This document shows positions 3,439 to 46,826 of a stretch of 57,705 bases of DNA, one piece after another; position 1 is the first letter of the stretch; every line of letters begins with the position of its first letter. Source of the stretch: Bacteroidota bacterium (GTDB lineage Bacteria; Bacteroidota; Bacteroidia; Chitinophagales; Chitinophagaceae). A program made the translations under genes and the position numbers. The stretch is taken from contig JABDDT010000014.1 of the NCBI GenBank assembly GCA_013287475.1, positions 1 to 57,705 on the forward strand, read 5' to 3'. The notes below the pieces were generated by a model, which searched no databases, was not told the DNA's origin, and was given only the letters and a program-made list of their open reading frames with translations.

Positions 3439-3531
3439 AGTATAAGAGTATAGGAGTATAAGAGTATAAGAGTATATGAGTGAATTTAATACCAAATTCT
3501 TATACTCCTATACTCTTATACTCTTATACTA
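3439..3531. repeat. palindromic octamer array (AGTATARG) x4/x4
   Basis: Left arm 3439-3478 has five octamers of AGTATAAG type (second is AGTATAGG, fifth AGTATATG). Right arm 3499-3530 has four CTTATACT octamers, the exact reverse complement, with one CCTATACT. The arms can pair over about 32 bp around a loop of about 20-30 nt. The right arm starts one base after the tpiA stop codon (3534-3532) and in tpiA's reading direction shows AGTATAAG, which contains TAA. It lies between tpiA and the flippase on the same strand and may end or limit transcription, or fix the tpiA mRNA 3' end. Confidence 0.95.
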
Positions 3532-4293
3532 TTATTTCAAAGCCCTTATTATTTCCAAAAACTCCGAGGCTAAAAGAGATGCTCCTCCGACCAATCCTCC
3601 ATCCACATCTTTTGAAGCGAAGATCTCTTTTGCATTGCCGGCCTTCACGCTGCCTCCATACAAAATTGAAATCTGATCTGAGAAGGATTCCCCATATTGG
3701 TTCTTCAAAACAGACCTGATATATGCATGCATCTCCTGTGCCTGTTCGGTGCTTGCTGTTTTACCGGTTCCTATGGCCCAGATGGGTTCATAAGCGATCA
3801 CAATTTTCAGAATCTCATCCTTTGATAAATGGAAAAGAGATTGTTTTAATTGATTCTCTACAAAACTATTCTGTTTATTTTGTTCCCGGGTCTGCAATGC
3901 TTCACCGCAACAAAAGATGGGAGTTATTCCGTTTAAGAGGCATAAGTTTACTTTATCTGCCAGCATAAGGTTGCTTTCACCAAAGTATTCCCTGCGCTCA
4001 CTGTGGCCAACGAGACAATAATCCAACGTAAGAGATTTCAGCATTTCGGCAGAAACTTCTCCCGTATAGGCACCGGACTTTTTATCAGAACAGTTCTGGG
4101 CAGATATAAAATAATTTTTTTTATGCTGGACTGTGTCTACTGCCATTTCCAGATAAGGAAACGGGACTGCAAATACAGCAATATGATTTTCCTTCAGGGA
4201 AATTTCTGCAGATACCATGGTTTGTAAAAGGGCAACTCCCTGTTGATATGTCAGGTTCATTTTCCAGTTCGCAGCAGCAATTTGTTTTCTCAT
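3532..4293 (-). CDS. tpiA: triosephosphate isomerase
   Basis: Glycolytic and gluconeogenic enzyme that interconverts dihydroxyacetone phosphate and glyceraldehyde 3-phosphate in the cytoplasm. The 253 residues match normal length. Catalytic residues are visible: Asn9 and Lys11 (AANWKMN), His97 (VGHSERR) and Glu169 (AYEPIWAIGTG), plus the C-terminal phosphate-binding YGGSV and GGLVGGASL stretches. It starts inside the last codons of the GlmU-like gene (4-nt overlap, ATGA), so the two are translationally coupled. A palindromic octamer array begins one base after its stop. No unusual feature is seen in the protein. Confidence 0.98.
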   Translation of the reverse strand: MRKQIAAANWKMNLTYQQGVALLQTMVSAEISLKENHIAVFAVPFPYLEMAVDTVQHKKNYFISAQNCSDKKSGAYTGEVSAEMLKSLTLDYCLVGHSERREYFGESNLMLADKVNLCLLNGITPIFCCGEALQTREQNKQNSFVENQLKQSLFHLSKDEILKIVIAYEPIWAIGTGKTASTEQAQEMHAYIRSVLKNQYGESFSDQISILYGGSVKAGNAKEIFASKDVDGGLVGGASLLASEFLEIIRALK

Positions 4294-5318
4294 TTGAATT
4301 GTTTTTCCTGGTCAAAAATATTTTTTAATTTATTTATTTCATCCTGACTTAATTCCCCGCCTTTGAGTTTTTTCCATCTATTTATATGCTGTATTGCTTT
4401 CTCAAAATCATATTTGGAAGCACCATAACCCCAGCTAAAAGAAGGAAGATAAGGAGGCGTAAATCCATTTCCAAAAACATGGCAGCAGACACCCATAACA
4501 GTTCCTGTATTAAAAGATGTATTTATCGCTGATCTCGAATAATCGCCCATCATTAGTCCGCATTTCAAACCTCCATCAATAAACGATTTTTTTAATGGAT
4601 TCCAGAGTTTAACGGACCCACCGCTATTTTTTACATTCGAATTGGAACTGCCGGCACCCAGATTACACCATTCCCCGATTACAGAATCACCCAGATAACC
4701 ATCGTGTGCTTTATTTGAATAACCGAAAATAACAGAGTTTTTAATTTCACCGCCCAGCACACAATGGGGACCTGCCGAAGTGGCTCCATAAATTTTAGTA
4801 CCCATTTTTACCAGTCCTTTTTCTCCCATTGCAAACGGACCCCGGATCATTGATCCTTCCATGAGCAGGGAGTTCTTTCCGATATAAATAGGCCCATCAC
4901 TTGCATTCAGATAACAGTGTTCCACTATGGCTCCGGGCTCCAGAAAAATGGCAGATCCTGTTAATTTATTTGTGGATGATATGGGTTCAGAGATCCTTCT
5001 TTCTGTAATGAGGCGGAAATCATTTTTTATTTCCCTTTCATTGTAATGAAGGATGTCAACGGGATTCCGTAGAATATTTTCACTCTTTGGAGAATAATTC
5101 AGGCTTTTTTGTGAAAGTGATCTGATCATTTCAGGATCAGGAATAGTATTAGCTTTAAAGGCAAGCGTACCGGATATTGCTGGTTCATTCTTAAGATAAA
5201 TATTCCATTTCTCCCGGATGGTTAAAATTCCACAACGAATATCAGCCACTGAACGGGTCAAAGAAAAGGGGAAGAAATCATCAGAAAAAGGGCCATCATC
5301 CAGTGAAAGGGAATTCAT
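4290..5318 (-). CDS. GlmU-like sugar nucleotidyltransferase/acyltransferase
   Basis: Bacteroidota-specific GlmU-family protein, 342 residues, thought from its family to act in UDP-N-acetylglucosamine formation. The N-terminus has the family signature: a DDG stretch, then FSLTRSVADIRCGILTIREKW, where the loop replaces the classic GlmU pyrophosphorylase motif. From about residue 125 a left-handed beta-helix of hexapeptide repeats follows (IFLEPGAIVEHCYL, GPIYIGKNSLLMEGSMIRG, VLGGEIKNSVIFGYSNKAHDG), ending with a helical tail. It heads a set with tpiA, flippase and glycosyltransferase, which suits supply of amino-sugar nucleotides to envelope glycans. Its exact reaction is inferred only from the family. 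A strong terminator sits just upstream and belongs to the preceding L31 gene. Confidence 0.85.
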   Translation of the reverse strand: MNSLSLDDGPFSDDFFPFSLTRSVADIRCGILTIREKWNIYLKNEPAISGTLAFKANTIPDPEMIRSLSQKSLNYSPKSENILRNPVDILHYNEREIKNDFRLITERRISEPISSTNKLTGSAIFLEPGAIVEHCYLNASDGPIYIGKNSLLMEGSMIRGPFAMGEKGLVKMGTKIYGATSAGPHCVLGGEIKNSVIFGYSNKAHDGYLGDSVIGEWCNLGAGSSNSNVKNSGGSVKLWNPLKKSFIDGGLKCGLMMGDYSRSAINTSFNTGTVMGVCCHVFGNGFTPPYLPSFSWGYGASKYDFEKAIQHINRWKKLKGGELSQDEINKLKNIFDQEKQFK

Positions 5319-5352
5319 GGATTAAAACTAATCTTAAAAACCTTTTCAAAAA

Positions 5353-5385
5353 AAAAGTCCCTCCCGTTCACCAGGAGGGACTTTT
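5353..5385 (-). terminator. rho-independent terminator of L31 gene
   Basis: A perfect 12-bp stem (GGAGGGACTTTT pairing with AAAAGTCCCTCC) with a 9-nt loop, followed on the minus strand by a run of about nine T. It lies 16 nt after the L31 stop codon and separates it from the GlmU-like gene. Confidence 0.93.
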
Positions 5386-5400
5386 AAAGAATTATAAATA

Positions 5401-5746: not shown

Positions 5747-5775
5747 CGATGAATGATAACCGATGACCGATGACC
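5747..5775. repeat. short heptamer array CGATGAC x4
   Basis: Four degenerate heptamers (CGATGAA, TGATAAC, CGATGAC, CGATGAC) in tandem between the L31 promoter and the 3' array of yajQ. Confidence 0.7.
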
Positions 5776-5803
5776 GTCTTAACTTTACTCTCACTCGTTT
5801 TAA

Positions 5804-5831
5804 GCTTTGAGCTTTAAGCTTTAAGCCCTGA
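5804..5831. repeat. heptamer array GCTTTRA x4 behind yajQ
   Basis: Four heptamers (GCTTTGA, GCTTTAA, GCTTTAA, GCCCTGA) run into the hairpin at the yajQ stop codon. Read in yajQ's direction the unit is TTAAAGC, which contains TAA. Confidence 0.85.
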
Positions 5832-5845
5832 ACCGAAGGTTCAGG
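5827..5845 (-). terminator. 8-bp hairpin spanning the yajQ stop codon
   Basis: CCTGAACC and GGTTCAGG pair perfectly over 8 bp with a 3-nt loop. The yajQ stop codon (5843-5841) is inside one arm. No T-run follows on the minus strand, only the heptamer array, so it is not a classical terminator; it may mark the mRNA 3' end. Confidence 0.5.
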
Positions 5846-6332
5846 ACCTCATATTATCAAACTGAAGGGGAATTCCCAGGCTGGCGGATTTGCACAATTG
5901 AATTACGGCCTGTAGTTCATCGAGTTTTTTGCCCGTTACCCGAACCAGATCGTCCATAATGGCTGCCTGAACTTTCATACCCGAATCTTTAATCAATTTG
6001 ACGATTTTTTTGGCATCTTCCTGTTTCAGTCCGTTACGAACGGACACTTCCTTTTTGGTGACTTTTCCACTTGGATATGGTTCCTTCGACATATCATAGG
6101 CCAGCGGGTCAATACCCTGTTTAATTGACCTGCTGATTAGCACATCCGTAATCTGCCTTATTTTCATATCACTTGCCGCCTCGAGATCAATTTTCATTTC
6201 TTTTTTATTCAGTTCAATGGAAACCGGCGAGTCCTTAAAATCAAATCTGTTCTGAATTTCTTTTTTTGTAACATTAACTGCATTGTCCAGTGTTTGTGCA
6301 TCAATTTTACTGACAATATCGAATGATGGCAT
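5841..6332 (-). CDS. yajQ: YajQ family nucleotide-binding protein
   Basis: Cytoplasmic protein of the YajQ/UPF0234 family (163 residues, full length). The opening MPSFDIVSKID and the later AYDMSKEPYPSGK and VRVTGKKLDELQ stretches are family hallmarks. Known relatives bind nucleotides, tRNA/rRNA or, in Xanthomonas, cyclic di-GMP; which applies here is unknown. It is a single gene between the outer-membrane barrel gene and rpmE2. Its stop codon is embedded in a perfect 8-bp hairpin (5827-5845). Confidence 0.95.
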   Translation of the reverse strand: MPSFDIVSKIDAQTLDNAVNVTKKEIQNRFDFKDSPVSIELNKKEMKIDLEAASDMKIRQITDVLISRSIKQGIDPLAYDMSKEPYPSGKVTKKEVSVRNGLKQEDAKKIVKLIKDSGMKVQAAIMDDLVRVTGKKLDELQAVIQLCKSASLGIPLQFDNMRS

Positions 6333-6376
6333 AGATTTTAATTGAGAACCTAAAAGTAAATTAAAAAGCCGATTAC

Positions 6377-6410
6377 TCCCATTCTCCTATACTTCCATAC
6401 TCCCATACTT
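6377..6410. repeat. octamer array TCCCATAC x4
   Basis: Four octamers (TCCCATTC, TCCTATAC, TTCCATAC, TCCCATAC) end one base from the stop codon of the outer-membrane barrel gene. In that gene's direction the unit reads AGTATGGG, a member of the AGTRTRRK octamer type. Confidence 0.85.
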
Positions 6411-6411
6411 T

Positions 6412-8865
6412 CTAGTTGTTCCCTCCTTTTTTCAACCGGTTTGATTCATCATCTGCTCCGCCTGAATGATGATTATTTTGAGGACCCTTTAGCACTTTGC
6501 CGAATCGATAAGTAAATGTCAGACTCAGCTGGCGACTGTCACGTGAATTATGGAAGGTTGCTTCTGTTTCCTGAAAGTCAATTGTACCTTTCACCTGTTG
6601 GGTATAAAAAATATCACGCAGACCCAGTTTCAGGCTTGCTTTATCTTTCATGATCTGTTTTGCAATGGCAGCAGAAGTTTGACCCATGGGCTGAACCATA
6701 ATCTGACCTTCAATACCACTGGTTCTGTACCAGCCTGATAATTCAGCACTCCAGCCGTTGGTAAACTTAAACTGGTTGGTCATATTTCCCATTCCGGTTA
6801 CAGCACTCACATTCAGGTTTTCGCCATATAATTCACCTGTAAAATGATTGTAGTTTACATTTAAATATATTGTCGTATTCCACCATTTGGTCAGCGGCAT
6901 ATTCAGGCTTACAGCAATACCTCCATTTTCCCTTCTTCCGATATTTCCACGCCGAACAATCGTTGCATGTCCATCCTGTTCAAAGGTTTCAGCGAAAAAA
7001 TTCTGGGTATTACTGTAATTCAGTGTGGTGGTGAGCTTGTTTTTATATGTATGAGATAATTCAATATTTGTGCTTAGCTGGGGCTGCAGGTATGGATTTC
7101 CAGCCTGGTAAGTATATTCATCCAGGAAAAATAAAAAAGGATTCAGGTCACCATAATCAGGCCGGTCTATTCGTCTTCCAAAATTCAAATTGAATGAATT
7201 ATTACTATTCAAATCATAAGTAATATAAGCAGTGGGGAATGCATTTACATATGATTTTTTGAATGAAGAATCGTTGTTGTTTACTGTATAAATATTTCCA
7301 TACTGGTGGCCGTCGTAGTTGGTGTTTTCTACCCTGAGGCCGGCCTGCAAATTCCATTTGCCATATTTTTTTGTCAGGTTGATATAGGCTGCATTTATAT
7401 TTTCATGATATACAAAGTAATTCGTCTTGGTTGTGTCCGGCACATAGACTTCTCCGGTTACATCATAATAATTTGCCTTATTGTCTGTTGCGACAAAACT
7501 CGTCTTCAATCCTGCTTCCAGCTTGAAATCGTTCCGGAAAGGATGGGTATAATCTGTTTTAAAACTGTAGATATTAATAGTTGACGGAAGTTCGCCACTC
7601 AATGTGTTAGAAGATAACAAATTCATATCCGGATCATAAGTATAATTCTGGAATAATTGGTTGCTGCCGGATTTATAGTAGATATAATCTGCATCTGCTG
7701 TAAGTTCCCGGCCGGTTGAATCAAATTGCCTTCTGAAATTCAGGTTCATTGTACCATTGGACCAGATGCCATGGATATTTCCAAACGATTGCACAAGTGA
7801 GTCTGTCACATTATTCGAATTTTTTAAAGAAATATAACTTTGGGAAACATCCGTTTCATTATTCTGATATCCGCTGAATACGACACCCAGCGTTGTTTTG
7901 CTGTCCAGGAAATAATCCATACCCAATTTTATATTCAGTTCAGGTGAAAGGAATTTCATATGGGTGCTTTGCGTGAAAATAGAATTGATATTCTTAGTTC
8001 CCGGATCCAGGTAGTTTCTGTTTATATCAAGCTGCTGAAATCCCTGCCAGTAAGTGTATCCGCCGTTAAAGAATAAATTGAATTTATTTACACGATAATT
8101 CAGGTTCAGGCTGCCACCGGGTTTTGCATATTTTCCCTGGGTATATGTAAGCGTTGTAGACCCGTTAAATCCTTTGGCTTTATTTTTCTTTGTTTTGATA
8201 TTAATAATACCTGAATTACCTGCCGCGTCATATTTCGATGAAGGATTACTCATGATTTCCAACTGATCTACAGCTGAAGAAGGAAGACTCTTCAAATAAA
8301 CAGACAACTGGGCTCCCGACATATAAGTTGGTCTGTTATCTATCATGATGGTTACTCCCTGTTTTCCTTTCAGGCTGATATTACCATCTTTATCTACCGA
8401 TACACCGGGGGATTTTTCAAGTACATCCATGACAGATGTCCCTGCGTTGGCAGGTGACGCGTCTACATTTACAAGTATCCTGTCTGATTTCTGCTCGATG
8501 AATGGCTTTTTACCTACCACTGCAACCGAAGCCAGCTCATTGTTTTGTTTTTGAAGAATAATAACAGGTATTTCAAGAATTTTCATTCCAGAAACGATCG
8601 TAAAATTAGCTTCTTCCACCGGAATATGGCCTATTGCTGATATCCGGATATGGTAAATTCCGGGTGGTATGGCAGGAAAGCTAAATTTTCCATCCTTGTC
8701 GCTTACTTCATTTTTAAAAGAAAGGGAATCCCTCCCTTTTATCAATGAAATGCTTGCCGCCTCTAAAGGTGATTTATTTTCCTCCTGAACTGATCCTTTT
8801 ATCTGGGTTTGCGCATGTAAGTAGCCTGTTAAACCCAGCAAAAACAGTGTAGTAATGATTTTCAT
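6412..8865 (-). CDS. outer-membrane beta-barrel protein (TonB-receptor-like)
   Basis: Outer-membrane protein of 817 residues. Domains in order: signal peptide (about 1-18, LLGLTGYLHAQ), a CarboxypepD-regulatory-like beta-sandwich (about 20-105, IKGSVQEENKSPLEAASISL), a plug-like domain (about 120-225, with DVLEKSPGVSVDKDGNISLKG), then a long beta-barrel with alternating strands ending in LSLTFTYRFGK and a charged tail. This architecture is that of the Bacteroidota outer-membrane beta-barrel family related to TonB-dependent receptors; no SusD partner lies beside it, so the ligand is unknown and need not be a glycan. A promoter-like pair lies upstream at 8908-8939. An octamer array starts one base after the stop. 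Confidence 0.9.
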   Translation of the reverse strand: MKIITTLFLLGLTGYLHAQTQIKGSVQEENKSPLEAASISLIKGRDSLSFKNEVSDKDGKFSFPAIPPGIYHIRISAIGHIPVEEANFTIVSGMKILEIPVIILQKQNNELASVAVVGKKPFIEQKSDRILVNVDASPANAGTSVMDVLEKSPGVSVDKDGNISLKGKQGVTIMIDNRPTYMSGAQLSVYLKSLPSSAVDQLEIMSNPSSKYDAAGNSGIINIKTKKNKAKGFNGSTTLTYTQGKYAKPGGSLNLNYRVNKFNLFFNGGYTYWQGFQQLDINRNYLDPGTKNINSIFTQSTHMKFLSPELNIKLGMDYFLDSKTTLGVVFSGYQNNETDVSQSYISLKNSNNVTDSLVQSFGNIHGIWSNGTMNLNFRRQFDSTGRELTADADYIYYKSGSNQLFQNYTYDPDMNLLSSNTLSGELPSTINIYSFKTDYTHPFRNDFKLEAGLKTSFVATDNKANYYDVTGEVYVPDTTKTNYFVYHENINAAYINLTKKYGKWNLQAGLRVENTNYDGHQYGNIYTVNNNDSSFKKSYVNAFPTAYITYDLNSNNSFNLNFGRRIDRPDYGDLNPFLFFLDEYTYQAGNPYLQPQLSTNIELSHTYKNKLTTTLNYSNTQNFFAETFEQDGHATIVRRGNIGRRENGGIAVSLNMPLTKWWNTTIYLNVNYNHFTGELYGENLNVSAVTGMGNMTNQFKFTNGWSAELSGWYRTSGIEGQIMVQPMGQTSAAIAKQIMKDKASLKLGLRDIFYTQQVKGTIDFQETEATFHNSRDSRQLSLTFTYRFGKVLKGPQNNHHSGGADDESNRLKKGGNN

Positions 8866-9088: not shown

Positions 9089-9158
9089 GCCTTGAGCGTT
9101 TTGCGTTAAGCGTTTGGCGTTAGGCCTTAAGCGTTATGCGTTTGGCCTTAGGCGTTAG
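9089..9158. repeat. heptamer array GCSTTNR x10 overlapping lgt 3' end
   Basis: Ten contiguous heptamers without interruption: GCCTTGA, GCGTTTT, GCGTTAA, GCGTTTG, GCGTTAG, GCCTTAA, GCGTTAT, GCGTTTG, GCCTTAG, GCGTTAG. The last two lie inside lgt and encode its final Asn-Ala and stop. In lgt's direction the unit is YTAACGC. Confidence 0.95.
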
Positions 9159-10431
9159 TCGTGGAAGGCTGGTGTTTTTTGAGATAATAATACAGAAAAC
9201 CACCTCCGATAATCAGCAGGGTGGAAATGATTTCAGCCTGGGTTGGATGAAATCCAAGGATTGAATAACGGGTGTTTACCCTGATCTTTTCGATAAAAAA
9301 TCTTTCAATTCCATTTATGATGAGATAAAATGCAAATAGAGTTCCGGGTACCTTGAATTTTTTTCGCACAGACCAGAGGAGAAAGAATAATCCTAAACAA
9401 ACGATTGTTTCATAAAAAGGTGTTGGAAAAACAGGTACAGGGAGGTAACTGCAATAAGATCCGACACAATTTGGAATCTTTATACCTGCTCCAATTACAT
9501 TATGCGGATAAGGATATGCGAAGAGCCAGTTTGGAAGAAATGAAGGTCCTTTTACTGCATAATGAGGAACATCCAATGTATGGAATTCACTCATAAAATA
9601 ATCTGAATTTCTGCCAAGCTGGAATTGAAAATTCTGTGCTGTTGCAGGAATGGATTTCAGATTTTCACTGACCGCATACGCACTGTTCGGTATGCCCCAG
9701 TCACCATCCCCCGATACCTGGCAGCCAATTCTGCCGGTTCCATATGCTAACATGAGTGCTGGAGCAGCGGCGTCATTCAGGTACCAGAATCCGATTTTAT
9801 GCTTTCTGGCATAATACCAGATAGCCAGGGCTGCAACAATCAATCCTCCATAAAAAGTAAGACCGCTAAATGATACCAGAGATGCTACAGGGTTTTTAAT
9901 AAAGTCATCCCAGGTTTCAAGGCTATTGAAAATCTTGGCTCCCAGAAAACCGAATATAGCAGCATATATTACGATATCCCCCACCCTGTCGTGGGGCCAT
10001 ATCCTGATAACTCTTTCTTCTGGTTTTGGTAGTTTATGTTTATACTTTTCATACCATTTTAAACTGGCAAAAAATAAGCCTAAAGCGAGTCCAGCCCACC
10101 CGTTACCAGCGGAAGAAAAAATATAATCTGCAGGGTTTTGGTTAAGCTGGGAATTTGAAGTGAAAAGACCGATAAGTTTATACCCGAATAAAAAAGCAAT
10201 TATAAAATTGGTTAGGAGCTCTCCGGGACTGGCGAGTTTACCAACAACAATCGTTTCATCTTCTGCTTCAAGAAGGCCCTGCCTTTCTTTCCTTTTCAGC
10301 TCGCTTGTAAGCACCATTGCGGCACCAATAAAAGAAAGCGCGACAAAAAACCCAAAACTGTTTATAAAATGAAGGAACTTTAAATCGACGCCAAACAGGT
10401 CTTTAACTGCGTAGTATAAATTCGGATACAT
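9148..10431 (-). CDS. lgt: prolipoprotein diacylglyceryl transferase
   Basis: Inner-membrane enzyme that transfers diacylglycerol from phosphatidylglycerol to the lipobox cysteine of prolipoproteins, the first step of lipoprotein maturation. At 427 residues it is of the long Bacteroidota type. The Lgt signature appears as GTGRIGCQVSGDGDWG from about residue 231; several hydrophobic segments flank it and the C-terminus keeps INGIERFFIEKIRVN. I place the start at the ATG at 10431: the longer open frame to 10707 would overlap the divergent dehydrogenase gene and its extra 92 residues look like its antisense. The last residues and stop come from a heptamer array. Confidence 0.93.
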   Translation of the reverse strand: MYPNLYYAVKDLFGVDLKFLHFINSFGFFVALSFIGAAMVLTSELKRKERQGLLEAEDETIVVGKLASPGELLTNFIIAFLFGYKLIGLFTSNSQLNQNPADYIFSSAGNGWAGLALGLFFASLKWYEKYKHKLPKPEERVIRIWPHDRVGDIVIYAAIFGFLGAKIFNSLETWDDFIKNPVASLVSFSGLTFYGGLIVAALAIWYYARKHKIGFWYLNDAAAPALMLAYGTGRIGCQVSGDGDWGIPNSAYAVSENLKSIPATAQNFQFQLGRNSDYFMSEFHTLDVPHYAVKGPSFLPNWLFAYPYPHNVIGAGIKIPNCVGSYCSYLPVPVFPTPFYETIVCLGLFFLLWSVRKKFKVPGTLFAFYLIINGIERFFIEKIRVNTRYSILGFHPTQAEIISTLLIIGGGFLYYYLKKHQPSTTNA

Positions 10432-10497: not shown

Positions 10498-11361
10498 ATG
10501 AATAAAATTGTCGTCATTGGAGCTGGTACTATGGGAAATGGCATTGCCCATGTTTTTGCCCAATATACTTTCCCGGTTTACCTCGTCGACCTGTACGCAG
10601 AACAATTGGAAAAAGCCCTGACAACCATTTCTAAAAATCTCGACAGACAGGTGCAGAAAGGAATTCTTTCTACGGAAGAAAAGATCAATGTTATTAATCG
10701 TATTCATCCTGTCCAGAATATCAGGGAAAGTGTTCAGGGGGCTGATTTTATTATTGAAGCCGCAACTGAAAATGAAAATGTCAAACTCCGGATTTTCAAA
10801 GAGCTTGATGAATATGCTTCACCGGCAGCCATTCTGGCCAGCAACACCTCATCCATATCCATAACAAGAATTGCAGCTGTAACCAAACGCCCAACCCAGG
10901 TTATAGGAATGCATTTTATGAATCCGGTTCCACTTATGAAACTGGTGGAAGTTATTAATGGGTATGCAACGGCTGGTCATGTTACTGAAAAAGTAATTGA
11001 ATTAACCAAAAAGTTGGATAAAACTCCCTGTGTTGTAAAAGACTATCCGGGTTTTATTGCAAACCGTTTACTGATGCCAATGATCAATGAGGCGATCATT
11101 AGTCTCCAGGAAGGCGTGGCTTCAGCAGAAGCTATCGATACCGTCATGAAACTGGGAATGGCTCATCCAATGGGACCTTTACAGCTGGCAGATTTCATAG
11201 GTCTTGATGTTTGTCTCGCCATTATGAAAGTACTGCAGGAAGGATTCGGCAATCCGAAATATGCGCCTGCAACATTACTGGTAAATATGGTGGCGGCCGG
11301 AAATCTCGGTGTAAAATCCGGAGAAGGATTTTACAACTATCGTAGTGGAGGAAAGAATTAA
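10498..11361 (+). CDS. hbd: 3-hydroxybutyryl-CoA dehydrogenase
   Basis: NAD(P)-dependent 3-hydroxyacyl-CoA dehydrogenase, 287 residues, oxidising or reducing short-chain 3-hydroxyacyl-CoA in the cytoplasm. The N-terminal Rossmann domain begins VIGAGTMGNGIAH (residues 6-18). The catalytic dyad is likely His139 and Glu151 (GMHFMNPVPLMKLVE). The C-terminal domain has NRLLMPMINEA and the family end GVKSGEGFYNY. It is divergent from lgt with 66 nt between starts. It may work in fatty-acid or branched-chain degradation with the EtfBA pair encoded further on, or in butyryl-CoA-type synthesis; no other beta-oxidation gene is in view. An octamer array begins 3 nt after its stop. Confidence 0.93.
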   Translation: MNKIVVIGAGTMGNGIAHVFAQYTFPVYLVDLYAEQLEKALTTISKNLDRQVQKGILSTEEKINVINRIHPVQNIRESVQGADFIIEAATENENVKLRIFKELDEYASPAAILASNTSSISITRIAAVTKRPTQVIGMHFMNPVPLMKLVEVINGYATAGHVTEKVIELTKKLDKTPCVVKDYPGFIANRLLMPMINEAIISLQEGVASAEAIDTVMKLGMAHPMGPLQLADFIGLDVCLAIMKVLQEGFGNPKYAPATLLVNMVAAGNLGVKSGEGFYNYRSGGKN

Positions 11362-11364: not shown

Positions 11365-11472
11365 AGTATAAGAGTATAGGAGTATAAGAGTAAATGAGTG
11401 AATCTAAATCTTTATTCTTATATTCTTATACTCTTATACTCTTATACTCTTATACTCCTATACTCTTATACT
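11365..11472. repeat. palindromic octamer array (AGTATARG) between hbd and ribD
   Basis: Left arm 11365-11396: four octamers (AGTATAAG, AGTATAGG, AGTATAAG, AGTAAATG). Right arm 11417-11472: seven reverse-complement octamers of CTTATACT type (one CCTATACT, one CTTATATT). The two genes converge here, so each reads the AGTATAAG orientation. The ribD stop codon (11460-11458) lies in the second octamer seen from ribD. The arms could form a long hairpin serving both genes. Confidence 0.95.
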
Positions 11473-12552
11473 ATGAATATTCCGATAGTAACTAATCCTA
11501 TCGCTGGTGAAATTTTCAGTCTTCAGGTGTTTTGCATTTTTAAAATCAGGCGATGGAATCCCGTCTTCAATTATCATTTCAGTATTGGTTATAATCCGGA
11601 TTTCATCCCAAAGTTCCGAGTCAATAAAAGACTTCAGCAGCTTTGCACCTCCTTCAACCAGGATACTTAAAACGTGTAAAGAATGCAGCGAAGTTAAGAT
11701 AGATGGTATATCAGTTTGTTCTCCATTTATTTTCTTAAATAACAATTCCCCTGATTGCATTTCCTTTTTTCTGTTGAGTATAATAGTCGGAACCTTACCG
11801 TCAAATATATTCAGATCATCAGGAAGCCTGAGTTCTTTATCCAGAACAATTCTTATGGGATTTTTTCCTGTCCATAATCGATTGGTTAATTCCGGATTAT
11901 CCTGTAAAGCTGTTTCGGTTCCGATCAGGATGCCCGCTTCTTCGCTCCGCCATTTGTGTACCAGCCGATTCGAATAATCATTGGATATCTTAATTTTTTC
12001 ACCGGATCTTCCCCCTATTTTGTGATTGGAGGATTCAGCCCATTTTAAAACGATATAAGGTCTCTTTAGCTGATGAAAAGTAAAAAAGCGTTTATTTTTT
12101 TCTTTTGCCAATTCTTCCAAAACCGGATTATCTACGTTGACTCCATGGGCAATTAATTTTTCTATTCCTTTTCCATTTACTTCCTTAAAAGGATCCCGGC
12201 AACCTATAACTACCCTTGGAATTTTTTCACGGATAATAAGATCTGTACAGGGTGGTGTTTTCCCATGATGCACGCATGGTTCCAGCGAAACATACAGTGT
12301 AGATTGAGGAATCAGTGGCCGGTCATCAATTTTTACTGATGACAGACAATTTACTTCAGCATGCGGTCCGCCATATACTTCATGATATCCTTCCCCTATT
12401 ATTTTTCCATTATGAACAAGCACGGCGCCAACCATTGGATTGGGTGCGGTATGACCTGAACCTAATTCAGCCAGATGAAGGCATCTTTGCATGAATGCAG
12501 ACTGGGAAAGATTCTCATTGATATCAAAAATATTGGCCGGTTGTGAAGTCAT
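11458..12552 (-). CDS. ribD: riboflavin biosynthesis bifunctional deaminase/reductase
   Basis: Cytoplasmic enzyme for two steps of riboflavin synthesis: deamination of the pyrimidine intermediate and reduction of the ribosyl side chain. The N-terminal deaminase has its zinc ligands in GPHAEVNC (His64, with catalytic Glu66) and PCVHHGKTPPC (Cys93, Cys102). The reductase domain follows from about residue 150 (RPYIVLKWAES) and contains LVEGGAKLL. I use the ATG at 12552; an earlier TTG is possible. The last residues SIRV and the TAG stop are encoded by the octamer array, so the true ancestral C-terminus may have been replaced. No FMN riboswitch can fit in the 34 nt to the divergent prmC. Confidence 0.95.
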   Translation of the reverse strand: MTSQPANIFDINENLSQSAFMQRCLHLAELGSGHTAPNPMVGAVLVHNGKIIGEGYHEVYGGPHAEVNCLSSVKIDDRPLIPQSTLYVSLEPCVHHGKTPPCTDLIIREKIPRVVIGCRDPFKEVNGKGIEKLIAHGVNVDNPVLEELAKEKNKRFFTFHQLKRPYIVLKWAESSNHKIGGRSGEKIKISNDYSNRLVHKWRSEEAGILIGTETALQDNPELTNRLWTGKNPIRIVLDKELRLPDDLNIFDGKVPTIILNRKKEMQSGELLFKKINGEQTDIPSILTSLHSLHVLSILVEGGAKLLKSFIDSELWDEIRIITNTEMIIEDGIPSPDFKNAKHLKTENFTSDRISYYRNIHSIRV

Positions 12553-17649: not shown

Positions 17650-17662
17650 CTTAACTAATTTT

Positions 17663-17745: not shown

Positions 17746-17751
17746 TTCAGT

Positions 17752-22353: not shown

Positions 22354-22383
22354 AGCAAAGTTTTAGATTTAAGAAATATCGAA

Positions 22384-34400: not shown

Positions 34401-34432
34401 GTTATGAATTATGGGTTATGGGTTATGAGTTT
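34398..34432. repeat. heptamer array TGRGTTA x5 from VIT1 stop codon
   Basis: TGAGTTA, TGAATTA, TGGGTTA, TGGGTTA, TGAGTTT; the first TGA is the stop codon of the VIT1-type gene. Confidence 0.88.
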
Positions 34433-34450
34433 ATTATAAGAGTATTTCAC

Positions 34451-34482
34451 TCCCATACCCCCATACTCCCATACTTCCATAC
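34451..34482. repeat. octamer array YCCCATAC x4
   Basis: TCCCATAC, CCCCATAC, TCCCATAC, TTCCATAC, ending 5 nt from the stop codon of the convergent small membrane protein gene. In that gene's direction the unit is AGTATGGG type. Confidence 0.9.
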
Positions 34483-34487
34483 TTTCC

Positions 34488-36635: not shown

Positions 36636-36706
36636 GGTTCCGTGGCCGAGCGGTTAGGCAGAGCTCTGCAAAAGCTTCTACAGCAGTTCGAATCTGCTCG
36701 GAACCT
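36636..36706 (+). tRNA. tRNA-Cys (GCA)
   Basis: The acceptor GGTTCCG pairs with CGGAACC, the D arm is GCCGAGCGGTTAGGC, the anticodon stem GAGCT/AGCTT encloses CTGCAAA with anticodon GCA, and the T stem AGCAG/CTGCT encloses TTCGAAT. The discriminator base is T, the identity base for cysteine. CCA is not encoded. It is the only tRNA seen. Confidence 0.96.
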
Positions 36707-40529: not shown

Positions 40530-40646
40530 ACGATAATCTACGTTTGTTCCTAAAATATACAAATAAATATCTATTTATTCCAAAATATTCTATAAATACC
40601 TATTATTTGTTCTACAAACCTACCTTTACGCTACAAAACATTATAT

Positions 40647-41972
40647 ATGTCAACAAAAACAAAAAATATTGATCTTACGCTTCCTTATAAGGTGAAGGAT
40701 ATGAGTCTGGCTGAATGGGGCCGTAAAGAAATCCGGCTGGCTGAAGCGGAAATGCCTGGTCTCATGTCTTTACGTGCTGAATATGGCAAATTGAAACCAT
40801 TAAGAGGTGCGCGGGTTGCGGGTTGTTTGCACATGACCATACAGACAGCTGTTTTGATTGAAACGCTGATTGAACTGGGTGCCGAGGTTCGCTGGAGTTC
40901 ATGTAATATATTCTCAACACAGGATCATGCAGCAGCTGCAATTGCAGCAACCGGTGTCGGCGTCTTTGCCTGGAAGGGACAGAGTCTTGAAGAAGCTGAC
41001 TGGTGTATTGAACAGACCTTATTCTTTGGCGGAACTGACCGCCCTTTGAATATGATCCTGGATGATGGCGGTGATCTTACCAATATCGTGTTAGACAAGT
41101 ATCCTGAGCTCGTACAGTACGTGAAAGGAATTTCTGAAGAAACTACCACCGGAGTACACAGACTTTATGAAAGAGTTGTGAAAGGTACCCTGCCTGTTCC
41201 CGCAATCAACGTAAATGATTCAGTAACCAAGTCGAAATTTGATAATAAATATGGTTGTAAGGAAAGTCTTGTGGATGCGATCCGCAGAGCCACGGATGTG
41301 ATGCTTGCAGGAAAGGTAGCCGTAGTCGGAGGTTATGGAGATGTGGGTAAAGGATCTGCGCAATCCTTACATGGTGCAGGTTGTCGCGTTATTGTAACTG
41401 AGATAGATCCCATTTGTGCTTTACAGGCTGCTATGGACGGATACGAAGTAAAACGAATGATCGACGCCGTCAGGGAAGCGGATATCGTAGTAACCGCATC
41501 CGGTTGCCGTGACCTGATTACTGAAAAACATTTCCGTTTACTGAAAGATAAAGCGATTGTTTGTAATATCGGCCACTTTGATATTGAAATCGATATGGCC
41601 TGGATCAATAACAACTATGGTCATACGAAAGATACTATTAAACCACAGGTTGACTTGTACAATATTGATGGAAAGGATGTGATCATACTTGCAGAAGGGC
41701 GCCTGGTGAACCTGGGATGTGCTACAGGCCATCCAAGTTTTGTGATGAGCAATTCATTCACTAACCAGGTGCTGGCACAGATTGAGCTTTGGCAGAATCA
41801 TGGCAAGTATGAAAATAAAGTATTTGTTCTTCCAAAACATCTGGATGAAAAAGTCGCCCGCCTGCACCTTCCTAAGATTGGTGTAACACTGGATGAACTG
41901 ACTGATGTACAAAGTGAATATCTCGGCATTCCTGTGAAGGGCCCGTATAAAGCGGATCATTACAGATATTAA
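40647..41972 (+). CDS. ahcY: adenosylhomocysteinase
   Basis: NAD-dependent enzyme that splits S-adenosylhomocysteine to adenosine and homocysteine, keeping methylation reactions running, 441 residues. Key stretches: [37 protein letters not shown], the active-site [16 protein letters not shown], the NAD fold [14 protein letters not shown]-like ([15 protein letters not shown]) and the C-terminal [14 protein letters not shown] with KADHYRY end. No SAH riboswitch structure is evident in the 117 nt to the divergent Lrp gene. A heptamer array follows directly and then a bidirectional terminator. Confidence 0.98.
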
Positions 41973-41980
41973 GCCTATAA

Positions 41981-42029
41981 CGCTTAACGCGTAACGCCAA
42001 ACGCGTAATGCGTAACGCGTAACGCAAGA
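41981..42029. repeat. heptamer array CGCGTAA x7 behind ahcY
   Basis: CGCTTAA, CGCGTAA, CGCCAAA, CGCGTAA, TGCGTAA, CGCGTAA, CGCAAGA, preceded by GCCTATAA that touches the ahcY stop codon (41970-41972). The unit carries TAA on the coding strand. Confidence 0.93.
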
Positions 42030-42115: not shown

Positions 42116-42150
42116 TGCGTTCAGCATTCAGCGTTACGCGTTCAGCGTCT
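42116..42150. repeat. heptamer array GCGTTCA x5 behind TIM-barrel gene
   Basis: GCGTTCA, GCATTCA, GCGTTAC, GCGTTCA, GCGTCTA; the last overlaps the stop codon of the convergent isomerase-like gene (42151-42149). On that gene's strand the unit is TGAACGC, containing TGA. Confidence 0.9.
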
Positions 42151-43057
42151 AATATCCCCATCCATTCATAATGGCCAAATCCTGTTTTGAACAATCGAGA
42201 GGATCCATCCCCTGGTAGGATTCCTGTTCGATTATAAACCATTTGGTGCCACCACTGGTACGTCCGATATCGCAGACCTCTTTTGTCCCGACAATTCCTT
42301 TGCCAAGGATGGTGCTTTCATATTTTTCTGAGGAAGCTTTTGTTACGGGGATCTCGTCTTTTACATGCATCAGTTCAAAACGTCCGGGGAATTTTTTGGC
42401 AACATCAATTGCTTTAAATCCACCATTATACAGGTTGCCCATATCAAGTTGTTGTGCAACTAGTGCTGGATCCGTATTATTAAGTATCAGGTCGTAAAGT
42501 AATTGTCCATCAATCATGGTAGTGAATTCGAAATCGTGGTTATGATAGCCAAATTTCATTCCTGATTTCTGACAAAGCATTCCGGATTTATTGAATACAT
42601 CCATATATGCTTTGAAATCATTCATATTCTTCCGAAGACTGTTATCAAGCCATGGAGATACCAGATATTTCTGCCCGGCAGTAGCTGCGTCCTCAACCGT
42701 ATATTTCCATTTGTCTGAAAAATCATTTTTTGAAAAATCATAATCCTTTGGCATCATCTGTACATGGCCGCTGATCATATTCAGATTGTATCCATCCAGG
42801 AGTTTTTTAAACTCAGTGGGAGCATATCCATAAAATTTTCTGTCCCTATAACCAGCATGTTCCACATATTTGTAACCAATATCTGAGAGACTCTTTAAAG
42901 TTCCCGAGGGATCTTTATACATAGCTTCACGAACAGTATAAAGTTGGATTCCAATAAATTTATCAGGATATGCTGCAAATAGTTTATGTGAGCCAACGGC
43001 AAGAGCAGCAACAGATAATCCACTGGTTTTTAAAAAATTTCTGCGTGTTGTAGTCAT
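42149..43057 (-). CDS. Tat-exported sugar phosphate isomerase/epimerase-like protein
   Basis: TIM-barrel protein of the AP-endonuclease-2 superfamily, 302 residues, preceded by a clear twin-arginine signal (TTTRRNFLKTSGLSVAALAVG). The barrel begins FIGIQLYTVREAMYKDPSGTLKSL and keeps GYHNHDFEF (His pair), QLDMGNLYNGG (Asp) and ELMHVKDE (His, Asp/Glu), the metal-site pattern of this family. It acts outside the cytoplasm, probably on an oxidised or unusual sugar; relatives are found with 3-keto-sugar pathways. It is distinct from the other Tat-exported TIM barrel at 23575-24492. The stop codon is inside a heptamer array. Confidence 0.86.
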   Translation of the reverse strand: MTTTRRNFLKTSGLSVAALAVGSHKLFAAYPDKFIGIQLYTVREAMYKDPSGTLKSLSDIGYKYVEHAGYRDRKFYGYAPTEFKKLLDGYNLNMISGHVQMMPKDYDFSKNDFSDKWKYTVEDAATAGQKYLVSPWLDNSLRKNMNDFKAYMDVFNKSGMLCQKSGMKFGYHNHDFEFTTMIDGQLLYDLILNNTDPALVAQQLDMGNLYNGGFKAIDVAKKFPGRFELMHVKDEIPVTKASSEKYESTILGKGIVGTKEVCDIGRTSGGTKWFIIEQESYQGMDPLDCSKQDLAIMNGWGY

Positions 43058-43070: not shown

Positions 43071-43105
43071 AAGCGTAAGGCTCAAAGCGCAAGGCTTAAA
43101 GCTTC
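43071..43105. repeat. heptamer array AAGCGTA/AGGCTYA x5
   Basis: AAGCGTA, AGGCTCA, AAGCGCA, AGGCTTA, AAGCTTC, starting 14 nt upstream of the TIM-barrel start. It mixes the GCG and GCT variants of the heptamer and is one of the few arrays beside a 5' end. Confidence 0.85.
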
Positions 43106-43252: not shown

Positions 43253-43301
43253 GCTTAAGGCTTTAGGCTTTGGGCCTTCAGCTTTAAGCTTTATGCCTTA
43301 C
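43253..43301. repeat. heptamer array GCTTTAR x7 overlapping the GtrA gene end
   Basis: GCTTAAG, GCTTTAG, GCTTTGG, GCCTTCA, GCTTTAA, GCTTTAT, GCCTTAC. The GtrA-family stop codon (43286-43284) and its last four or five codons fall inside the array. Confidence 0.93.
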
Positions 43302-43775
43302 CGGGCTGGATTTAAAAGTAAAATTCTTTTGAGTCAGGTAGCTGAAGGAAACCACAATGGCAGTGGTTATGATTTTTGCAATGGTAGGATATATATGAAA
43401 TTGTTCCACAAACAGACGGATGAAAATATAGTTCAGGATTATGCATATTAAAACGAGAACAAAATACCGGAAAAGCTGAACACGGCCGTGCAGTACAGAT
43501 CCGGGAAATACCACATGCCGCATCAGCATAAAGCCGGTAGGGAAACTGATGAGAAAGGAGATAATAAAGGCGGCTATATGGGGCTTAAAAGAAATAAAGC
43601 CCAGATGTAAAACCTCTTTATGAAGGATATAGTTATAAGCCAGGAAAAAAACGAAAATATCAAGGATTGTGTTGGCGCCCCCGCATGCTGCATACCGGAA
43701 AGTCTGCGGGGAGAAGATCTTACGGAAAGGGGGATAAAAAAAATCTATTATGGAAATGATCTCCTTTTTTGGCAT
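43284..43775 (-). CDS. GtrA family membrane protein
   Basis: A 163-residue protein with four membrane helices (about 24-45, 58-82, 99-122, 128-150) of the GtrA/DPMS family, whose members help flip or position lipid-linked sugars for surface glycan decoration. Family features: FRYAACGGANTILDIFVFFLAY near the start and ITTAIVVSFSYLTQKNFTF near the end. No flanking GtrB-type transferase is present. The last codons and the TAA stop are inside a heptamer array. It diverges from argS by 88 nt. Confidence 0.88.
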   Translation of the reverse strand: MPKKEIISIIDFFYPPFRKIFSPQTFRYAACGGANTILDIFVFFLAYNYILHKEVLHLGFISFKPHIAAFIISFLISFPTGFMLMRHVVFPGSVLHGRVQLFRYFVLVLICIILNYIFIRLFVEQFHIYPTIAKIITTAIVVSFSYLTQKNFTFKSSPVRHKA

Positions 43776-43863: not shown

Positions 43864-45642
43864 ATGGAGCTTGTGCCCGGCATCAAACTGGCCGTTCAGG
43901 CTGTTTTAGCCGAAAAATATAATCACCGGATTGATTCACAGGACGTACTGGTTAACGAAACCAAGCCGGAATTCAAGGGAGATTACACCGTCGTTTTATT
44001 TTCATATAGCAAAATTCTGAAAATCTCACCCGATGCCCTCGGTCAGGGTATCGGAGAATTCCTGCTTAATTCTAATCCTGACTGGTTTTCAGAATTTAAC
44101 GTTATCAAAGGTTTTCTGAACCTGGTAATGGCGGATAATATTTTAATAGATTTCCTTCATACCCAATATAATAATGCATCCTACGGTTCGCAATCTGTTA
44201 ATGGGAAGCGCGTCATGGTTGAATATTCTTCTCCTAATACAAATAAGCCTCTGCACCTTGGGCATCTCAGGAACAATTTTTTAGGTTGGAGTGTAGCTGC
44301 CATTTATAAAACCTTAGGTTATGACATGATTAAAACATGTATTGCGAATGACAGAGGTATTCATATTTGTAAAAGTATGGTTGCCTGGAAATTGTTTGCA
44401 AACGGAGCCACACCAGAAAGTACAGGTTTAAAGGGTGATCATTTTGTTGGAGATTATTATGTTTTATTTGGGATCGAATTAAAAAAGCAGGTAGAAACCC
44501 TGATGACTTCTGGCCTTGCCAGGGAAAAAGCTGAAAAAGAAGCACCGCTGATGATTGCAGCACAGAAAATGCTGGTCGACTGGGAAGCAGGTGTTCCTGA
44601 AGTGATCGAATTATGGAAAAAAATGAATGATTGGGTTTATGCCGGATTTGATATTACATACAAACGCATTGGTAGCGATTTTGATAAGATATATTATGAA
44701 AGCCAGACATACCTTCTTGGTAAGGACCTCGTCGAAATAGGATTAGCAAAAAAAGTTTTTTTTAAAAAAGAAGATGGCAGCGTCTGGATTGATCTGAAGC
44801 CCGATGGACTGGATGAAAAGATCGTGCAACGAAGTGATGGAACCGCAGTATATATGACGCAGGATATTGGCCTGGCAGAAAGAAAATATGAAGAGTATCA
44901 TACGGATCTTAGCCTTTATGTAGTGGCGGATGAACAGAATTATCACTTTAAAGTCCTTAAACTTATTTGTCAGAAACTCCAATTGCCTTCTGCAGCAGGA
45001 CTATATCATTTATCATACGGACTGGTTGAACTTCCTTCAGGAAGAATGAAAACACGTGAAGGAACCGTTGTGGATGCCGATGATATTATTGATGAAATGA
45101 CAAGCATTGCGGCAAAACATACAGAGGAACTGGGTAAAGTAGATGATTTTACAGAAAAAGAAAGAAAAGAACTCTATGATACGATTGGACTGGGTGCTCT
45201 GAAATTTTTTCTTCTCCGCGTCGACCCGAAAAAGCGAATGGTATTTAATCCTGACGAATCCATCGACTTCCATGGATTTACAGGACCATTTGTACAGTAT
45301 GCACATGCCCGCATAAAATCTATATTAAGAAAAGAGTCAATGGGCGAATATTCCGGATCTGAAATAACATCGCTTCTTCCATTGGAAAAAGAATTATTGA
45401 TTTCACTTGAAAAATATAGTTCCTTACTACAACAGGCCTGTACTGAAATGAATCCTTCACTGGTCGCCAATTATGTGTTCAGCATAGCTAAAATATTTAA
45501 CTCATTTTACTCTGAGCATTCGATTGGACGGGCAGAATCTGAATATAAAAAACAATTGCGTTTAAGGATATGCGTTATGACTGCGCGTGTTATTCAATCA
45601 GCGATGAGTTTATTAGGAATCAAGGTTCCCGAAAGAATGTAA
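43864..45642 (+). CDS. argS: arginyl-tRNA synthetase
   Basis: Class I synthetase that charges tRNA-Arg, 592 residues. An N-terminal Add-1 domain (about 1-110) is followed by the HIGH motif as HLGH (131-134, in NKPLHLGHLRNN) and the KMSKS-equivalent MKTREGTVV, the degenerate form normal for ArgS. The C-terminal DALR anticodon-binding domain starts about 470 and ends with VIQSAMSLLGIKVPERM. A TAA stop is followed at once by a second TAA that opens a heptamer array. Confidence 0.98.
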   Translation: MELVPGIKLAVQAVLAEKYNHRIDSQDVLVNETKPEFKGDYTVVLFSYSKILKISPDALGQGIGEFLLNSNPDWFSEFNVIKGFLNLVMADNILIDFLHTQYNNASYGSQSVNGKRVMVEYSSPNTNKPLHLGHLRNNFLGWSVAAIYKTLGYDMIKTCIANDRGIHICKSMVAWKLFANGATPESTGLKGDHFVGDYYVLFGIELKKQVETLMTSGLAREKAEKEAPLMIAAQKMLVDWEAGVPEVIELWKKMNDWVYAGFDITYKRIGSDFDKIYYESQTYLLGKDLVEIGLAKKVFFKKEDGSVWIDLKPDGLDEKIVQRSDGTAVYMTQDIGLAERKYEEYHTDLSLYVVADEQNYHFKVLKLICQKLQLPSAAGLYHLSYGLVELPSGRMKTREGTVVDADDIIDEMTSIAAKHTEELGKVDDFTEKERKELYDTIGLGALKFFLLRVDPKKRMVFNPDESIDFHGFTGPFVQYAHARIKSILRKESMGEYSGSEITSLLPLEKELLISLEKYSSLLQQACTEMNPSLVANYVFSIAKIFNSFYSEHSIGRAESEYKKQLRLRICVMTARVIQSAMSLLGIKVPERM

Positions 45643-45645
45643 TAA

Positions 45646-45715
45646 GCCTAAAGCTTAAAGCCGAAAGCCTAAAGCCTTTTTAAGCTTAAGGCCCAAGGCA
45701 AAAGGCTTAAGGCTT
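45646..45715. repeat. heptamer array GCCTAAA/AAGGCTT x10 behind argS
   Basis: Ten heptamers: five GCCTAAA-type from 45646 (GCCTAAA, GCTTAAA, GCCGAAA, GCCTAAA, GCCTTTT) and five in AAGGCTT-like phase from 45681 (TAAGCTT, AAGGCCC, AAGGCAA, AAGGCTT, AAGGCTT). The two halves are partly reverse complementary, so a hairpin near argS's 3' end is possible. Confidence 0.92.
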
Positions 45716-45770
45716 TTTAATGGCAACGTAATAAACCAGTAAGATCATTAGAGATTCAAAAAAAATCTTT

Positions 45771-45805
45771 AAGCCTTTAGCTTTGCGCATTACGCCTTAA
45801 GCCTC
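45771..45805. repeat. heptamer array AAGCCTT x5 behind the PLD gene
   Basis: AAGCCTT, TAGCTTT, GCGCATT, ACGCCTT, AAGCCTC; the last overlaps the stop codon (45806-45804) of the PLD-family gene. It faces the argS array across 55 nt. Confidence 0.87.
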
Positions 45806-46826
45806 AATCATCATCTTCGTGCTTTTTCTTCAGATTGAGTCCAAGATTTTCATCACCTCCCTCACCCTTTTCTTCCAGATCAGAGATCAGGCCTTCGTCG
45901 GTAAGATCCAGCGGATGAGAATTTTGCCAGTCCTCGTGGGCGATTTTCTGAAGTCGTTCAATAATATCTTCATCATGCACTTCGATGGCAAGTTCTCTTC
46001 TGTCATCAAAACTACCCGGTGCCAGATTAATGGAACCTACGATCGCACGGTTACCATCTGCAATCAGCATTTTACCATGTAGTTTAAGGTGTCTGAGCGT
46101 ATGTACTTTAATTCCTACATCATCCATTATACGCAGACCACCAACTGATTCTACCAATTTATCTTTTTTCAGCGAATGCGGAGGGCGAGCCATAATATGG
46201 ACTTTAACTCCCCGCATGGCGGCTCTTACCAGTCTTTCAATGATCACTGAATCCTGGTAACGTTCATTTTGAACAAACAACGTATGTTTTGCCTCATCAA
46301 TAAAACGGGCAATCCGGTCACGTCCATTTCCTGTGCACCAGATCATATGGGCGTGTTCGCCCGGATCGAATACAGTTCTATCCCAATCAGCAATAAAACC
46401 TGCGACAACCTCATCCACTTCATGCTTATGATTTGTGGTAATTGCATAGTCGCGGGTAACCGTCAGATTCTTCGTAGCCCAGTTTAAGGATTTAATAAAG
46501 GCGGTTTCATCATCTATGATCATCGATTTCTCATGAGTAAGTCCGAATGCGGGGTTGCTGTCCTTCACTTCGATTCCGACTTCTTCCAGTAATTTGCGTG
46601 TTTCACCATTATCTTCTTCTCCACTTCTGCGTGCGGGATTCAGCATCACCTGAACCTTTACACCTCTTTTTTTTGCTTCAATGGTAGCACTAATGAGGTC
46701 GGGATCAGAAAATACAAACATTTTTATTTTGAGCGATTTCTTAGCCTTCCCTATAGCATCTAGAATTGGTTTTTTTGTATCATCGGGAAGTATAATGATA
46801 GTCCTGGTTGAATTTGATTTTGACAT
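45804..46826 (-). CDS. phospholipase D-like (cardiolipin synthase-type) protein
   Basis: A 340-residue PLD-superfamily protein with two complete HKD motifs: His98-Lys100-Asp105 (THEKSMIIDD, then SLNWATKN) and His250-Lys252-Asp257 (LHGKMLIADG, then GSINLAPGSFD). No signal peptide or membrane segment is seen, unlike classical cardiolipin synthases, and the tail is acidic (EEKGEGGDENLG, KKHEDDD). It could be a phospholipid-synthesising or -cleaving enzyme on the inner membrane surface, or a nuclease-like member. It follows the ABC exporter gene by 27 nt and is probably co-transcribed. Confidence 0.83.
   Translation of the reverse strand: MSKSNSTRTIIILPDDTKKPILDAIGKAKKSLKIKMFVFSDPDLISATIEAKKRGVKVQVMLNPARRSGEEDNGETRKLLEEVGIEVKDSNPAFGLTHEKSMIIDDETAFIKSLNWATKNLTVTRDYAITTNHKHEVDEVVAGFIADWDRTVFDPGEHAHMIWCTGNGRDRIARFIDEAKHTLFVQNERYQDSVIIERLVRAAMRGVKVHIMARPPHSLKKDKLVESVGGLRIMDDVGIKVHTLRHLKLHGKMLIADGNRAIVGSINLAPGSFDDRRELAIEVHDEDIIERLQKIAHEDWQNSHPLDLTDEGLISDLEEKGEGGDENLGLNLKKKHEDDD

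Follow-up and report, generated by a model that had tools for sequence, protein, structure and literature searches.

Outward-pointing 7- and 8-bp tandem arrays at gene edges in a Chitinophagaceae-like genome

Degenerate tandem arrays of 7- or 8-bp units recur in the intergenic DNA between positions 3,439 and 45,813 of the stretch studied here, a contig of 57,705 nucleotides (JABDDT010000014.1, our C14) that is called the window below. The contig belongs to a Chitinophagaceae-like metagenome-assembled genome (MAG) of 3.16 Mb, 137 contigs and 74% completeness, and the closest named ArgS loci lie in Chitinophagaceae and Bacteroidetes MAGs (83% and 80% identity). A sequence-only reading of the window had listed about 17 genes followed by such arrays and had proposed a genome-wide 3'-end element. 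Using a detector of our own (lagged self-match; standard score at least 14, looser score 11), 20 arrays were found in the window at a score of at least 14, with period 7 in 12 and period 8 in 8. The same detector found no array within the 52,616 bp of the window called as coding sequence, and when each intergenic region longer than 30 nt was dinucleotide-shuffled five times, no array appeared there either. Tandem Repeats Finder, run alongside, shows arrays at most positions named by the sequence-only reading. All gene calls come from one simple caller, also our own.

In the following, X denotes the outward orientation of a unit family (on the plus strand unless minus is stated) and X...x a convergent inverted pair. 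A AGTATAAG array at 3439-3481 (X on plus), upstream of the start of the minus-strand gene ending at 3432, is the inner arm of a hairpin formed with an inverted AGTATAAG array at 3498-3535 (X on minus), which lies at the stop of gene 3532-4293. Next come a GATGACC array at 5748-5776 (X on plus), a GCTTAAA array at 5799-5826 (X on minus), 14 nt off the stop of gene 5841-6332, a AGTATGGG array at 6376-6409 (X on minus), 2 nt off the stop of gene 6412-8865, and a CTAACGC array at 9089-9162 (X on minus) that overlaps the stop of gene 9148-10551/10707. The convergent genes 10498-11361 and 11458-12552 are separated by a AGTATAAG array at 11365-11403 (plus), 3' of the first stop, and an inverted one at 11413-11472 (minus), overlapping the second. 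Two AGTGTGGT arrays form the distal arm at 17662-17710 (X on plus) and the proximal arm at 17722-17745 (X on minus), the latter 6 nt off the stop of gene 17752-18456. A short GCATAAA/GCCTAAA array (18549-18578, plus) lies in a divergent gap, and another divergent gap is shared by a TAAAGCC array of about 9.7 copies (22382-22449, X on plus; left arm) and an inverted GCTTAAA array (22535-22577, X on minus; right arm).

Further along, a GCGTAAC array at 23504-23553 (plus) overlaps the stop of gene 22583-23509. A ACTACCAC array at 29630-29662, of the AGTGTGGT type on the minus strand, lies 3' of gene 28869-29612 and points inward for that gene, with a degenerate outward stretch before it. GTTGACC (32148-32179, plus; score 13) and GTTATGR (34398-34431, plus) arrays occur at the stops of genes 31345-32154 and 33660-34400, and a AGTATGGG array at 34449-34503 (X on minus) at the end of an uncalled open reading frame (ORF), 34488-34874. 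A TAACGCG array (41978-42025, plus), 3' of the stop of gene 40647-41972, faces a TGAACGC array (42117-42148, X on minus) at the stop of gene 42149-43057, and a terminator-like hairpin with a T-run lies between these two arms. Upstream of the start of the latter gene is a short degenerate GCAAGGCTCAAA array (43071-43102, plus), followed by a CTAAAGC array (43253-43300, X on minus) overlapping the stop of gene 43284-43775. Finally, AAGCCTA/GGCTTAA arrays at 45644-45715 (plus) lie 3' of the stop of argS (43864-45642; identified by Pfam), and an AAGGCTT array at 45764-45813 (X on minus) overlaps the stop of gene 45804-46826.

A 3' end was taken to carry an array if one lay between -40 and +45 of the stop, and was called free if the gap was at least 40 nt. 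By this measure, arrays do mark most free 3' ends of the window, as first described: 16 of 23 at score 11 and 14 of 23 at score 14, compared with none of the 29 tight ends (gap below 40 nt; one is a gene cut by the end of the window). The uncalled ORF 34488-34874 on the minus strand is a possible 17th array-bearing end; the arrays at 22382-22577 and 18549-18578 are not 3' ends, because they are located in divergent gaps.

The wider own-genome data (G000) comprise the window and 40 further stretches, 852.6 kb in total. Stretches L083-L090 were chosen for TAAAGCC matches, and 32 stretches (L091-L102, L119-L138; 640 kb), chosen without knowledge of array content, form the blind set; for L119-L138 the unit names, not the contexts, had been printed before families were defined. 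Comparison data consist of 80 ArgS loci and pieces of related genomes, with edge counts made on the 57 of 80 loci that remain when those below 15 kb are excluded. The window is richer in arrays than the genome: in the blind set they follow 59 of the 272 free 3' ends. Six 20-kb stretches from large contigs (L092, L093, L094, L095, L098 and L101) contain no 7/8 arrays, whereas other stretches have 3-8 per 10 kb, which could be due to assembly breaks at arrays or to true regional differences.

Position relative to genes is far from uniform. Per convergent 3' edge there are 0.33 arrays in own stretches, 0.235 in the blind set and 0.136 in relatives, and per tandem 3' edge 0.22, 0.164 and 0.063. 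The corresponding values are 0.12, 0.075 and 0.040 per tandem 5' edge and 0.045, 0.024 and 0.008 per divergent 5' edge, so that a preference for stop codons over start codons stood up to the check. In own stretches the median distance from array to stop is 0-7 nt at every gap length, and of the 75 arrays in gaps of at least 200 nt, 32 are no more than 15 nt from an edge, compared with a random mean of 14.3.

Period 7 accounts for 153 and period 8 for 52 of 222 arrays in own stretches, and for 115 and 34 of 176 arrays counted over 1.75 Mb of relatives. A few unit families recur genome-wide (GCYTAAR, GCNTAAC, AGTRTRRK, GTTGRC, GTTATGR and AT-rich ones), and 148 of 182 arrays in 122 own-genome gaps could be assigned to a family. 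TAAAGCC is the largest family and is C-rich on its outward strand; among the main own-genome units, read by eye, AGTATGGG alone has a run of three G. Array ends are sharp and unit purity shows no gradient, for which reason growth from one end was rejected. Composite arrays also occur: at L086 16680-16742, L088 9150-9204 and L125 10911-10965, GCYTAAA units give way to AGTGTGRK units, with identical orientation and junction. Several arrays in another part of L086 (6439-8857, 2.4 kb) are long, a GCGTAAC block there reaching about 32 copies; this part probably also contains genes missed by the caller.

The arrays are polar. By nearest edge, those of own stretches point outward 87 times and inward 15 times at 3' edges, and 39 and 7 times at 5' edges. 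In blind stretches not inspected beforehand the counts are 40 and 6 at 3' edges, in keeping with the orientation bias relative to the upstream gene that had been suspected, 15 and 2 at 5' edges, and 40 and 2 within 15 nt of a 3' edge. Arrays at 5' edges are mostly inverted relative to their gene. In many gaps a further array lies in inverted orientation, frequently right before the next start. Upstream arrays often adjoin a promoter-like TAnnTTTG; of the array-bearing 5' edges, 14 of 51 have this motif in the 60 nt upstream, compared with 53 of 388 others. Among array pairs 13-200 nt apart in own stretches, the X...x arrangement occurs 70 times (52 of one family, 18 of different families), x...X never within one family and once between families, and pairs in the same direction 14 and 2 times, respectively. 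Both arms belong to one family in 24 of 44 two-sided gaps of own stretches (mean 6.0 and maximum 13 over 1000 permutations) and in 10 of 20 in relatives (permuted mean 1.8, maximum 8). With other units, the X...x rule extends to the isolates 26-R-25 (L030), Pinibacter aurantiacus (L038) and P. soli (L040). The notion of a purely 3'-end element is not supported, given the inverted partners and the arrays found between divergent promoters.

Stop codons had been noted in nearly all units. They are present in 127 of 162 outward arrays at 3' edges, but AGTATGGG has none and still points outward 7 to 0 at 3' edges; it alone serves as the stop-free case because the similarity cut for unit classes merges units one base apart. 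Stop-bearing units also make up 48 of 60 outward arrays at 5' edges, where a stop would be useless. Stop codons as the cause of the arrays were therefore rejected.

Comparison of orthologous sites reveals that the period outlasts the unit. At 14 of 17 sites with arrays in at least two genomes the period is the same (shuffled mean 6.1, p 0.0001), often with a different unit; the sites that differ are 5653, 6333 and 34401, and site 32155, counted among the 14, rests partly on a TTTTTAC array. Region 17650-17751 has X...x arms in 5/5 genomes, made of differing octamers next to an identical protein end (the G016 array is short and was read by eye). In the divergent gap 22354-22582, X...x arms of three heptamer groups occur in 5/6 genomes, G016 having the right array only, and adjoin a promoter-like TATATTTGC in G008, G019 and G006. 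The arms of one gap match each other: at 7 sites own arms pair with a mean of -33.9 kcal (n=28) compared with -19.2 for between-genome swaps (n=94), with a p value of 1.8e-5 that is rough because the set includes a few array-free members and related genomes. Proteins are not lengthened by the arrays. In 17 comparisons with relatives, the C-terminus of array-bearing genes is equal in 11, shorter in 6 and longer in 0, and in 49 comparisons of genes without array it is longer in 4 and shorter in 5. The protein of gene 10498-11361 stops 10-11 residues short of its counterparts in G005 and G016, and the AGTATAAG array begins 3 nt past the new stop.

We tentatively favour a reading in which these are polar 7/8-bp arrays, spread genome-wide in non-functional intergenic DNA, that are both made and kept alike by copying at the DNA level; it seems possible, if a little short of probable. 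What was observed, and has to be accounted for, is position, polarity, inverted pairing, sharing of units, retention of period with change of unit, and lack of a transcribed-strand bias. Through template switching or recombination, one array would be copied into another, be it at a different locus or in the opposite arm of the gap. Selection would set the outer limits of the arrays, acting on the coding sequence at one end and on the following promoter or start at the other. In the likeliest detailed form, another array would serve as the template on which 3' ends are extended away from the edge of the gene, so that arrays at 5' and 3' edges alike would come to point outward. The arrays would be tolerated rather than useful. 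Sharing of units between loci requires exchange in trans. A trace of copying may be present in the AGTATARG family, in which 15 of 25 polymorphic arrays open with units in the order A-G-A (p 0.001 for a shared first-three order); this shared order at the gene-proximal end is compatible with copying. Retention of the period while the unit changes, followed site by site, offers a way to measure copying of dispersed short repeats between bacterial loci.

As to the enzymes, neither the Y1 transposase domain (Y1_Tnp, PF01797) nor reverse transcriptase (PF00078; a very divergent enzyme could escape) gave a match in G000, G005, G006, G008, G016 and G019, of which G008 is 99% complete and the others 58-86%; the two are present in 23 and 13 of 33 genus genomes, respectively. 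A telomerase-like reverse transcriptase adding the arrays and spread by Y1 transposase were rejected on these grounds, and recombination or template switching accordingly comes first. A dispersed hairpin element with a conserved loop was discarded because loops differ between loci. One specific version, rather unlikely as it stands, is recombination-based end healing, in which 3' ends in gaps would be extended outward by copying other arrays and then rejoined, much like telomere upkeep without telomerase. If true, such healing would rewrite gene flanks with a shared, drifting set of 7/8-mers and sometimes trim the last codons.

Several points weigh against DNA-level copying. No copying event was seen directly, and the shared unit order is absent from three other G000 families, from the G005 set and from the inner ends of the AGTATARG arrays. 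About half of the two-sided gaps have arms of different families, many arrays lack a detected partner, and in relatives the arrays of gaps of at least 200 nt are not concentrated in the 15 nt next to an edge (11/40, random 9.3). Copying does not explain why the periods are 7 and 8, and the conserved architecture at some sites could be a sign of function.

The main rival to copying is such a function in RNA: stem-loops at mRNA 3' ends or within operons, comparable to the repetitive extragenic palindromes (REPs) and bacterial interspersed mosaic elements (BIMEs) of Escherichia coli, that would be a barrier to 3' exonucleases or slow down ribosomes at the stop, the unit being free as long as the arms pair. 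The preference for 3' edges, the close stop anchoring in own stretches whatever the gap length, and the hairpin kept in 5/5 genomes at 17650-17751 despite different units are in its favour, as is site 6333-6411, where our genome has an array in place of the terminator-like hairpin and T-run of G005 and G019. All arrays with a detected partner fold with z < -2 (27/27 in own stretches, 13/13 in relatives). Those without do so in 23/62 and 14/28 cases, leaving 39 of the 62 in own stretches not beyond that value; overall, with the rest of the sequence shuffled, 50/89 array-bearing 3' ends fold beyond z -2, and array-free ends do in 19/93 under a different shuffle.

If the hairpins act as RNA, the transcribed strand is expected to tolerate G-U pairs and to avoid A-C. 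The sense strand of 40 tandem hairpins has no such advantage (sense -54.1, antisense -54.9; 126 and 141 G-U pairs), and matched arms are also found between divergent starts. Nor is there a clear U-tract: 13/33 arms are followed by at least four T in 8 nt (background 0.28) and 3/33 by at least five, with 3/14 in relatives, so the arrays do not combine hairpin and U-tract in the manner of intrinsic terminators. Selection on RNA is thus not supported; since there is no strand difference and no clear U-tract, and arms match between divergent promoters too, the simplest reading is that a DNA-level process keeps the arms alike. Stem-loop function is somewhat unlikely. Replacement of classical terminators by arrays was also considered and shows only a weak trend: terminator-like sites accompany 7 of the 109 ends with an array and 26 of the 224 without. 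Should arrays nevertheless shape mRNA ends, they would outnumber the classical terminators found in this genome, with 109 array ends against 33 terminator-like sites among 333 ends of a sample partly chosen for arrays. At gathering scores, the sole Rfam match in the window is a tRNA at 36636-36706.

Independent replication slippage at each gene end, tolerated past the coding sequence and without exchange between loci, would explain rapid gain and loss (the array at 3433-3531 is present in G000 only, of 5 genomes compared) and the avoidance of coding DNA, and heptamers are the commonest longer repeats in many bacteria according to two published accounts (PMC4679880; PMC4692102). This reading is already strained by unit families common to many loci of one genome, which speaks against slippage seeded separately at each stop; polarity fixed per family and arms that match in inverted order far above chance make it improbable. 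Least probable is a functional DNA boundary element, that is, polar sites read by a protein (as Chi by RecBCD or BIMEs by gyrase) that would protect or insulate transcription units. Arrays point outward at either gene edge whichever way transcription runs, and in relatives the outward strand is G-rich (30 of 37 scored families at 3' edges, 13 of 14 at 5' edges), both of which suit this reading, but each genome has several unrelated unit families without a common motif, and G-richness is weak in our own genome (17 to 12 families at 3' edges, flip p 0.09). A purine- or G-rich outward strand was likewise rejected as a rule, being clear in relatives and weak in our genome, where TAAAGCC is C-rich outward.

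Comparable arrays are known from other bacteria. Xanthomonas GGGAATC and Nostoc GGGGA(C/T)T form genome-wide intergenic heptamer arrays, on the sense strand up to 50 bp past the stop, some overlapping it, and on the antisense strand up to 50 bp upstream of ORFs (Rehm et al. 2015, PMC4692102). Convergent inverted pairs number 70 in Xcc and 75 in Xac, with few arrays between divergent ORFs, and the authors stressed quadruplexes and left the function open (PMC4692102). The arrays described here share with GGGAATC the intergenic heptamers, the sense-after-stop and antisense-upstream polarity, the stop overlap, the inverted pairs and the depletion between divergent genes (PMC4692102). Unlike the single G-rich unit of Xanthomonas, for which quadruplexes were proposed, they include many families, most without G-tracts, octamers as well as heptamers, and replacement of units at orthologous sites. 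We therefore file them as a variant of the GGGAATC kind, itself known but unexplained. Read from the unit, GGGAATC has no stop codon in either direction, which also speaks against anchoring by stop codons; and since the outward geometry recurs in a second, distant phylum with mostly non-quadruplex sequences, a quadruplex reading of the Xanthomonas arrays cannot be general. In a genome from another family of the order (G032; L229 7970-8723), GATTTGGG-like arrays face CAAATCCC arrays in a convergent gap, near in kind to the Nostoc GGGGATT unit.

Other systems are less similar. The TAACTGA direct repeats of marine Beggiatoaceae, intergenic and present also in some Bacteroidetes and cyanobacteria, provide stops in three frames of the forward strand and lie mostly just upstream of starts, forward to them (MacGregor 2015, PMC4679880). 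That system has one unit, and the account mentions only one inverted repeat in BOGUAY (PMC4679880); TAACTGA is not among our own-genome array units, and our 5'-edge arrays are mostly inverted to the gene. REPs and BIMEs, associated with REP-associated tyrosine transposases (RAYTs), are intergenic inverted repeats near stops, and REPs less than 16 nt from a stop are reported to lower translation (PMC2817692; PMC12306157). They are larger palindromic units spread by Y1 transposase (PMC2817692; PMC12306157), whereas here no palindromic unit of 20-40 bp was found, the arms being 7/8-bp arrays with loops not conserved between loci. The short tandemly repeated repetitive (STRR) sequences of filamentous cyanobacteria are 7-bp repeats able to form intergenic hairpins, for example at hupS-hupL; polarity, unit swaps and genome-wide pairing do not figure in the portion of that account used here (PMC2670836). 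No report of such arrays in Chitinophagaceae was found in the open-licence literature.

Three further features of the window deserve mention. Between genes 31345-32154 and 32396-33625, a conserved unannotated element at 32212-32345 is recognisable in the six genomes compared; it combines a promoter resembling TATATTGCA with an inverted CTCGA...TCGAG repeat, gave no Rfam match, and is perhaps a small RNA or leader. An ORF of 473 aa without Pfam match lies at 24489-25910, and a two-copy AT-rich repeat of about 29-31 bp at 40543-40604, upstream of gene 40647-41972.

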